Below, one piece after another: positions 100 to 11,576 of a stretch of DNA of 64,000 nucleotides. Source of the DNA: Halopseudomonas oceani. Lineage in GTDB: Bacteria > Pseudomonadota > Gammaproteobacteria > Pseudomonadales > Pseudomonadaceae. The position numbers and the translations under genes were made by a program. Location of the stretch: the NCBI RefSeq assembly GCF_002903165.1, contig NZ_PPSK01000006.1:1-64000 (forward strand). The letters are read 5' to 3'. Position 1 is the stretch's first letter. Every line of letters begins with the position of its first letter. Below the pieces are notes generated by a model, which saw only the letters and a program-made list of their open reading frames with translations, was not told where the DNA came from and did no database searches.

Positions 100-133
100 G
101 GGGCCTCCGGCTCTGTTGACAGGCGATCGTCAC

Positions 134-300
134 CACACTCTGTTCTACCTTGCGAATACGTGCTCAGGCGCTAAGCGCCGGCACCAGATACCGTTCGAAC
201 TGTCTGAGTGTGTTGGCAGGTGACGGCCCATCTACGAACCAAGCTCTTGAGGCTTCAGGGGCACACCGGCCTGTCACCTGCCGCCCGATGATCAGTCGGG
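134..300 (-). ncRNA. Candidate IS110 bridge RNA with target-binding and donor-binding loops
   Basis: Read on the minus strand, 5' to 3', this 167-nt stretch has the order known for IS621 bridge RNA. First is a small 5' hairpin (stem 296-300/284-288). Then comes a large loop closed by a perfect 10-bp stem (282-273 with 224-215, plus GGCC/GGCC at 271-268 and 228-225). Then a second large loop is closed by 7 bp (212-206 with 140-134) and contains a hairpin at 168-180. In the first loop, UGUGCCCCU (265-257) equals the top strand of the neighbouring repeat at 427-435. CGUAG (236-232) is complementary to CTACG at 434-438. The two guides meet at CT, as expected for left and right target guides. A TTGACT at 327-322 could be its -35. 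It ends 34 nt before the recombinase start. Confidence 0.6.
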
Positions 301-333
301 GACCATGGTCACAGGAACCACAGTCAACATACA

Positions 334-356
334 AGGGGCACGGCATGCCGTGCCCG
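334..356 (-). repeat. CATG-centred palindromic repeat, copy 1, abutting the IS110 left end
   Basis: A perfect 20-bp palindrome lies at 336-355 (gggcacggcatgccgtgccc). With its flanks, the 23-bp unit on the minus strand equals copy 2 (413-435) except at two positions, which change together and keep the pairing. Beyond CCCCT the sequence differs from the other copies (TTGTATG instead of AC), which fits IS110 insertion at this point. Confidence 0.85.
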
Positions 357-412: not shown

Positions 413-435
413 CGGGCACAGCATGCTGTGCCCCT
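413..435 (+). repeat. CATG-centred palindromic repeat, copy 2, intact
   Basis: A perfect 20-bp palindrome lies at 414-433 (gggcacagcatgctgtgccc), followed by CTACG. It is inverted relative to copy 1. The segment 427-438 is the stretch matched by the two predicted guides of the candidate bridge RNA. Confidence 0.85.
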
Positions 436-513
436 ACGCCAGGATTGGTGATTGGTGCGGCTTGCCGCACGCACGGTGGTGCGGCCGTCGCGGATATCTG
501 CGCCCGGCGGCGC
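436..513. other. Noncoding gap before the PLD-like gene
   Basis: There is no convincing gene in 356-513. Besides repeat copy 2 it holds a small hairpin (GTGCGG 455-460 with CCGCAC 465-470) that could take part in ending transcription of the minus-strand phospholipase D-like gene. It has no T tract. Confidence 0.4.
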
Positions 514-1959
514 TCAGAAGGTCGACAGTCCGCTCGCTTCCATAAAGCGGTACACCAGATAGCGCCAACGGCTGTGGTCTGCAAAGTCTGCGTAGGGCAG
601 GCTGTAGACCGCGCCGTTGGCGTTCTGCCATTGGCGCTCGAAGTCGGCACGCTGCGCGCTGATCTGCGGGTCGTCGCGGCGGCTGACCAGGCGCACGCTG
701 GTTTCTAGGTTGAGGTCGTGCAGATTGCGCCGGGTGAAGTTGGCTGACCCGGCGATCAGCTCGGCGCTGCCATCAGCCCGTTCCAGCCGAATCCACTTGC
801 GGTGGCACTGCTCACCGAAGGTCGCACACCAGCGCACCGCGATGCCGGCGTCGTGCAGGTCCCATGCCGCCTGGCGGTTGGGGATGCCATTCTTCTCGCG
901 GCCGAAGGCGTCCCGGTTGGGGTCGAGCATGACCCGCACCGTTACGCCGCGCTTCTGGGCTGCGATCAGCGCGTCGATGATCGGCCGCGAGGACAGATAG
1001 AACACTTCCACATCCAGCTGCTCTTTGTTCTGGGCCGAGCTGATCAGGTGCAGCAGGCCGCGCTCAATGGCCCCCTCAGTCAGTACCTGCAGCTGGTTGC
1101 CGGCCGCCGGCCTTGTATCAAGCGCCGGCGCAGACGGCCAGTTGATGGCGGCCGGGTAGCCGGACATCAGCGCGACGGCGCGTTCGGTCTGCAACAGGTC
1201 CAGCGCTGCCGCACCGCTGAATTGCACCGCGCTGTTATCGTGACGGCTGCTGGCATCGTGCGGGTTCATCGAGGTGACCAGCGCCTTCCACTCGCTACCG
1301 GTGCCGACCACCAGCGTCTTGCGGTGGTTGGCGCGGAAGTTCAGCAGGTGCAGGTAGCTGCGCAAGGTGACTTTGCCGGGGCCAACCGGGTTCGGCAGCC
1401 AGCCCCCCTCAGTGCTGTTACCCACATAGCTGCAGCACAGGGTCCAGATGCCGGTCCACAGTGGGTTGGACGCCGGCAGCTGGCTGAGGTCGGTCATCAC
1501 CACGTCTACTCCGGCGGCGCGCAGTCGTGCGAAATGGGCGGGCTGAAGGCCGCCATACAGGGTGTTGAATGGGTCGGTGATCAGCACTACCGGCATCTCG
1601 GGGTGCTGGTGGCGCGCGCGGATCAGGGCATCGGTCAGCTCGGCGGAGAGCGGCCTGTAGCTGTCGGTGCCGGCAAAGTCGTTGAACAAAAACATGTCAA
1701 CCACCAGCAGCTCGCGGGCCTCATCTATCAGCGCGAGGATGTGGTCCATGATCTGCTGCCGGGTACGGAGATCGCCGTGCGTATCACGCCAGCTCTGGTC
1801 GAATAGCAGCACCACGTCCTGTGCAGGGCGCAGTGGCGTGCTTACGGACAGGCCGGGGGGCATGGGGCGCCAGGCAACGATCAGACACGCGATAATGACC
1901 GCTGCGGCGAGCAGCAGACAGCATAGGCGAAGCAGGTTGGTTGTGAGCATGGTGCGCAT
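514..1959 (-). CDS. Phospholipase D-like domain protein, membrane anchored
   Basis: This 481-aa protein has one N-terminal hydrophobic segment (about residues 8-30), so the rest probably lies in the periplasm. It has two phospholipase D-type catalytic halves. HRK is at 212-214 with an SMN at 230-232, and HRK is at 386-388 with GSANF at 404-408. The histidine, lysine and asparagine of each HxK motif are kept. The aspartate normally four residues after the lysine is G in the first half and E in the second. This family joins or cleaves phosphodiesters, as in cardiolipin synthases and phospholipases. The substrate here cannot be told. Two ATGs are possible (1959 or 1950) and neither has a clear ribosome site. 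Confidence 0.8.
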   Translation of the reverse strand: MRTMLTTNLLRLCCLLLAAAVIIACLIVAWRPMPPGLSVSTPLRPAQDVVLLFDQSWRDTHGDLRTRQQIMDHILALIDEARELLVVDMFLFNDFAGTDSYRPLSAELTDALIRARHQHPEMPVVLITDPFNTLYGGLQPAHFARLRAAGVDVVMTDLSQLPASNPLWTGIWTLCCSYVGNSTEGGWLPNPVGPGKVTLRSYLHLLNFRANHRKTLVVGTGSEWKALVTSMNPHDASSRHDNSAVQFSGAAALDLLQTERAVALMSGYPAAINWPSAPALDTRPAAGNQLQVLTEGAIERGLLHLISSAQNKEQLDVEVFYLSSRPIIDALIAAQKRGVTVRVMLDPNRDAFGREKNGIPNRQAAWDLHDAGIAVRWCATFGEQCHRKWIRLERADGSAELIAGSANFTRRNLHDLNLETSVRLVSRRDDPQISAQRADFERQWQNANGAVYSLPYADFADHSRWRYLVYRFMEASGLSTF

Positions 1960-11379: not shown

Positions 11380-11576
11380 GCTTCACGGTGGCGCAGGTTT
11401 GATGGTTCCCACGCTCTGCGTCCGGTTGCTGTAAAGCTGCAGCGGACGCGACATGTCGCGTCCCTACAGTTGGGTGCTGTTCAGGTTGCAGCTCAGGTGG
11501 TACCTGGACGTAATTTGCAACCACCCTTCCGTTGGTTCAAGCATCCGCGCAAGCTGTTGGCTTCCAGCCCCAAAAA
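11380..11576. other. Noncoding gap with remnants of repeats
   Basis: No gene is seen. At 11404-11420 is one arm of a gttcccacgctctgcg-type repeat whose second arm is missing. At 11444-11463 is a CATG-centred palindrome. The rest shows nothing recognisable. Confidence 0.5.
11444..11463 (+). repeat. CATG-centred palindromic repeat, divergent copy 3
   Basis: A perfect 20-bp palindrome, ggacgcgacatgtcgcgtcc, followed by CTAC. It has the same length, centre and 3' flank as the copies at 336-355 and 414-433 but different arms. Confidence 0.75.

Follow-up and report, generated by a model that had tools for sequence, protein, structure and literature searches.

An IS621-like IS110 element, very probably guided by its own bridge RNA, in the CT core of a REP palindrome downstream of a phospholipase-D-like gene of Halopseudomonas oceani

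The DNA analysed here (the window) is a stretch of 64,000 nucleotides, bases 1–64000 of contig C6, from a draft genome of Halopseudomonas oceani in 64 contigs. Near its start lies an open reading frame that presumably encodes a phospholipase-D-like protein (PLD-like gene) and that ends beside a cluster of repetitive extragenic palindromes (REPs). One of these REPs is occupied. An IS621-like element of the IS110 family starts with base 333 on the minus strand, immediately after the CCCCT of the REP, and its insertion point is the CT core at the edge of the palindrome (Table 1). An IS110 junction at a CT core of a palindromic repeat had been proposed in the first-pass annotation and was borne out, as positions 334–355 (minus strand) comprise the palindrome plus CT and the element runs from 333. 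The divergence right after CT was also confirmed: the element begins with TGTATGTTGACT, while the intact copies continue with CCCCTACG (copy 2) or CTACAG (copy 3).

Table 1. Features of the element, its target and the REP palindromes, in window coordinates.
Feature	Position	Strand	Basis or remark
IS110 (DEDD) transposase, first 33 codons	1..99	-	Translation MTCVIGIDIAKHTFD...; remainder off contig
Left non-coding end (LE), predicted bridge RNA region	100..333	-	33-sequence alignment and consensus fold
Putative right donor guide (RDG) ATTCGCAAG	149..157	-	Alignment; by eye, pairs discontiguously with CTTGTAT
Putative left donor guide (LDG) ACGGTATCT	186..194	-	Identical to the element's right end (C38, C41, C1)
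Putative right target guide (RTG) GTAG	232..235	-	Pairs with target CTAC; alignment, family survey
Putative left target guide (LTG) TGTGCCCCT, core CT included	257..265	-	8/9 identical to left target; ninth U-G
Core dinucleotide CT	334..335	-	Insertion directly after core; empty sites in relatives
Left target CGTGCCCCT	334..342	-	Guide-target comparison
REP palindrome 1 (occupied) GGGCACGGCATGCCGTGCCC	336..355	.	Pattern search; minus-strand reading, then CT
REP palindrome 2 with its CTAC (intact; inverted with respect to REP 1)	414..437	+	Continues CCCCTACG
PLD-like gene (phospholipase-D-like, presumed)	514..1959	-	ORF; ends beside REP cluster; synteny anchor, orthologous neighbourhoods in relatives
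Third REP-like palindrome GGACGCGACATGTCGCGTCC (11444-11463) plus CTAC, other stem	11444..11467	+	Then CTACAG; copy 3 of the first-pass annotation

The REP pattern, allowing at most 3 mismatches, matched four times in the window and not once in 100 shuffles; the four matches are two palindromes, each counted on both strands. In the whole genome, with at most 2 mismatches, 33 REP matches were found versus none for a reversed control pattern. The repeated palindromes of this genome carry a GTAG head, one of the two REP heads (GTAG and GTGG) tabulated in the accessible part of PMC2817692. The genome contained a single match to Y1_Tnp (RAYT-type), at C7:82770-82967. No GTAG-headed hairpin was found in the 1.5 kb scanned on either side of this match, and no REP-flanked RAYT gene was seen.

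Contig C6 and the window share their first base, so the element's right end is unreadable here. Three right ends were identified elsewhere in the same genome, on contigs C1, C38 and C41, and all three read GGTATCT followed by AC, in agreement with the earlier prediction of CT and then AC. The left ends in this genome, on C6 and C1, both read CCCCT/TGTATG (the slash marks the junction). The right flank on C38 continues with ACAGCTCGGCGAAGCAGG, the end of an aminotransferase gene that we presume to be gabT-like. This contig was chosen as the partner of C6 because, in two relatives, G006 and G034, the gabT-like gene and the window's PLD-like gene face each other. The draft assembly keeps C6 and C38 apart, and it is by synteny that the C38 right end is probably that of the window copy; the middle part of the transposase gene of this copy is absent from the assembly. 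C41 was rejected as a partner of the window junction, as its flank aligns beside a different REP in G017. This third right end (L039 1-380) has a left partner that was not found in the assembly.

Both G034 and G006 have the REP-gabT junction in an empty state, which reads GTGCCCCT/ACAGCTC. In G034, one REP without an insertion lies between the PLD-like and gabT-like genes (GGACACGGCCTGCCGTGCCCCT/ACAGCTCGGCGAAACAGG). In G006, the gabT-side REP is intact, and the element occupies a neighbouring REP in the opposite orientation. Similarly, the place in G017 that corresponds to the C41 right end is an unoccupied REP ending in CCCCT/ACGG. The empty site CCCCTAC expected in relatives was thus recovered in G034 and G006 for the window locus and in G017 for the C41 copy. 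No target duplication was observed, and the insertion lies between CT and the next base, as judged from G034 and, for the C41 copy, G017, both of other species. Of the right part of the REP, only AC(A) remains at the gabT flank, because this REP and the stop codon of the gabT-like gene overlap. For the C1 copy, no empty site was recognisable beside the neighbouring gene in G010, G031, G013 or G011.

These empty sites also bear on whether the palindrome is the target of the element or a part of it that moves along. A REP does lie directly beside both left ends in this genome. However, REPs free of the element occur in the same genome and, in G034 and G006, also at the window locus, related elements adjoin palindromes of other sequence and the right ends carry only AC(N). 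A travelling palindrome is already contradicted by the empty sites, and we give it practically no credence.

The same element was found beside the same PLD-like gene in three Halopseudomonas genomes (L041, L042/L043 and positions 1-513 of the window). The three insertions occupy different REPs, and both orientations occur, which makes the neighbourhood of this gene a recurrent landing region. In G022 (H. pachastrellae), for instance, the PLD-like gene is likewise followed by the element, which sits in a REP with GTGGCCCT.

The 33 transposase residues encoded in the window are 94% identical to those of a second copy in the same genome, which in turn is 94% identical to the G022 protein. An intact homolog from G022 (L043) matched DEDD_Tnp_IS110 (PF01548) and Transposase_20 (PF02371) as well as the PDB chains of IS621 and ISCro4. 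Its residues D8, E58, D100, D103 and S241, with positions counted by eye, align with the catalytic residues of IS621, whose roles (DEDD plus Ser) are described in the available sections of PMC11208158. Of these five residues, only D8 falls in the part present in the window.

The left end of the element is non-coding and is predicted to encode an RNA with a 5′ stem-loop, a target loop and a donor loop, the arrangement of IS110/IS621 elements. Among the non-coding ends of 33 elements, mean column identity was 71%, and the landmarks were conserved in the alignment. The RNAalifold consensus contained 40 pairs, 22 of which had at least one two-sided change, and it recovered the 5′ hairpins and the donor stem. 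RNAalifold did not recover the target loop's outer stem, which was present only in the single-sequence fold; that fold was only weakly better than shuffles (z -1.46). The upstream non-coding region is predicted to fold like a bridge RNA, and this RNA would be expressed. A search of the left end against Rfam returned no relevant family. Comparison of the putative left target guide TGTGCCCCT with the target CGTGCCCCT gave eight identical bases, and the ninth would form an rU:dG pair. This is the match between positions 341–334 and a left guide, with G-U as its ninth pair, that the first-pass annotation had described, and the family-wide covariation described below supports it. Read by eye, the donor guides are each complementary to an end of the element; the pairing of the right donor guide with CTTGTAT skips two bases and includes one G-T pair. 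If the right and left ends were joined, they would form TATCTT preceded, 17 bp upstream, by a TTGC hexamer; by raw count, this promoter-like arrangement is present in 37 of 44 elements.

Guides and targets were compared across relatives. The transposase search, with E up to 1e-60, gave 100 listed matches in 41 of the 398 genomes of the family. From these, 84 loci entered the survey, with L106, which has no left end, dropped. To these we added the window itself and, from other contigs of Halopseudomonas, five more left ends (L044, L048-L051), which made 89; L047 was discarded because its contig stops before the anchor. Removal of L166 and L167, which have short left flanks, left 87 loci, representing 50 distinct genome/guide/target combinations in Pseudomonadaceae. 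The remaining 16 matches were one duplicate contig, three copies from the H. oceani genome (handled apart), six partial or distant matches and six loci in G403 and G378. In five of the last six (L203-L207), which are outside the survey, the guides end in CCGGCTCCT and the targets do likewise, and the two fit.

In the 50 combinations, the seven non-core left positions agreed at 317 of 350 places, versus a mean of 203 and a maximum of 243 for shuffled guides in 10000 trials. These combinations come from related elements and are not independent, so the shuffle result serves as a guide and not as a probability. One target per distinct guide (17 guides) makes a safer set, although the guides are also mutually related; here 114 of 119 positions agreed, versus a shuffled mean of 61.8 and a maximum of 88. 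Among the 31 distinct guide/target pairs, agreement at positions -9 to -3 was found in 22, 21, 25, 31, 31, 27 and 31 pairs, respectively. At -12, -11 and -10, 4, 6 and 6 pairs agreed, versus expectations of 4.0, 6.0 and 6.1. Guide-target agreement therefore ends at position -9. On the right side, the target was CTAC in 44 of 45 cases, a count in which L149, a second CTGC copy, was merged with its duplicate, and the guide was GTAG in 48 of 50. Agreement at the extended right-guide positions 5-7 was slightly above expectation (25 of 42 versus 20.5, 13 versus 9.4 and 15 versus 9.4). Some insertions of the family mismatch their guide at 2-4 positions (e.g., L092, L188 and L051). Moreover, a second, related element in H. 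pachastrellae (G022; L048-L051) has four left ends that share one guide and show 1-4 target mismatches. In a relative from Pectobacterium polonicum (L056, L057), the right flank is CTAA, the right guide is TTAG and the left guide GTTTCCCCT matches its target. The right guide there appears to change in step with the target, although this is one element type.

Palindromes at the insertion sites could also mean that the recombinase reads the REP hairpin as a structure, with an incidental guide match. Indeed, an exact 6-nt inverted arm precedes the core in 30 of the 50 combinations, versus 0.98 by shuffling. However, the 20 combinations without this arm match their guides equally, at a mean of 6.40 of 7 positions versus 6.30 for those with it. 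Agreement also stops at the guide boundary (-9), and guide and target co-vary across 17 guides. Since elements without the arm match equally, the site is best explained by the guide and not by the hairpin, and we consider recognition of the hairpin itself very improbable.

Guide and REP may track each other down to one base. The left ends of the H. oceani element and its closest relative, in G022, differ at 6 of 234 positions (97% identical); one difference lies in the left guide, C to G, and the same base is changed in the occupied REP. At this base, the REPs of H. oceani have C in 7, A in 5, G in 3 and T in 1 (n=16), and those of G022 have T, G and C in 2 each (n=6). Both H. oceani left junctions are at REPs with C. 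As these numbers of REP variants are small, they do no more than suggest one-base tracking. Two copies speak against it: that of G006 occupies CGCGCCCCT, one wobble off from its guide CGTGCCCCT, and in G015 one copy whose guide is GTGCCCCT lies at GTGTCCCT.

The copy on C1 (L009 4388-5397, G000 C1, minus strand) starts at another REP, with the CCCCT/TGTATG junction given above. It lacks 213 bp between two TGACC repeats, and nearly all of the bridge RNA region is gone. In our reading, the deletion replaces the start codon ATG with GTG; the transposase gene also contains one internal TAG. This copy is very probably dead. A decayed copy without the bridge RNA region indicates that the family is partly inactive in this genome and would be in keeping with an insertion placed by other means, the present guide match being a coincidence. 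The covariation throughout the family and the one-base change common to guide and target between H. oceani and G022 both speak against coincidence, which we regard as very unlikely.

Thus, with a probability of roughly 95%, we prefer the reading that an IS621-like IS110 element was guided by its own bridge RNA to the CT of a REP that lies downstream of the PLD-like gene. The element would have transposed into this CT presumably from a circular form. The recombinase (DEDD plus serine), with a chemistry taken from IS621, would cut after CT and exchange strands; such a cut and exchange would place the element between CCCCT and AC with no bases lost or duplicated. The window copy presumably is, or was, active.

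The results from this study also lead us to favor, by a narrow margin, the existence of a clade of IS110 elements specialised to follow REPs, in which the right guide is fixed as GUAG and the left guide changes with the REP stem. The GTAG head is common to REPs of many unrelated stems, and a GUAG right guide would pair with its complement; in the left guide, the seven bases outside the core would change by point substitution as the stem changes. If so, retargeting to a new REP population needs as little as one base (GTGCCCCT versus GTGGCCCT of H. pachastrellae). Neither the one-base guide/REP tracking nor the GTAG anchor was found in print in a search that covered few subscription papers and no bioRxiv preprints.

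With filled and empty sites, 17 natural guides and an agreement that ends sharply at nine bases, the family offers a clean natural test of bridge-RNA targeting. Between two sister species, the elements differ in a single guide base and in the same base of the target, and the family's elements form a ready series for measuring guide evolution. They also suggest that REPs, as mobile repeats with a fixed GTAG head, are a moving landing pad for the clade. REP targeting by IS110 elements, including Pseudomonas members as the first-pass annotation stated, is already published (PMC1525189, available text), as is guidance by bridge RNA (PMC11208160, available text). Added here are matched filled and empty sites, a family-wide guide-target table, the proposal of a GTAG-anchored right guide and the one-base tracking.

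Similar to IS621 of Escherichia coli, the bridge RNA prototype, the element described here has a CT core, is inserted in a REP with a cut after CT and before A, and combines a DEDD plus Ser recombinase with a non-coding left end that has target and donor loops and with the right target AC. According to the accessible passages of PMC11208160, the natural target of IS621 is ATCAGGCCTAC, and its guide layout, with a discontiguous right donor guide, is as seen here; the structure in the available portion of PMC11208158 places the cut after the T of CT and before the target A. The junction promoter described for IS621 resembles the TATCTT/TTGC arrangement at the predicted circle junction. Different from IS621, however, the left guide here is TGTGCCCCT, not the E. 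coli REP sequence, and the two proteins are significantly though distantly similar (218 bits for the IS621 chain). ISPpu9, ISPpu10 and ISPa11 of Pseudomonas, likened here by description, are also IS110-family elements inserted in REPs, with every copy at one point of the host REPs in the part of PMC1525189 available. ISPa11 is an IS1111-type element with its guide RNA downstream of the gene, as stated in the accessible part of PMC11187229, whereas the guide region here is upstream. Finally, the same portion of PMC11187229 describes ISEc11 and ISXne4 as related elements in which guide region and target have changed together, as found here. However, their transposases are 72% identical and their target-matching regions have widely diverged, whereas the left ends compared here are 97% identical and differ by one guide base that is matched in the target.
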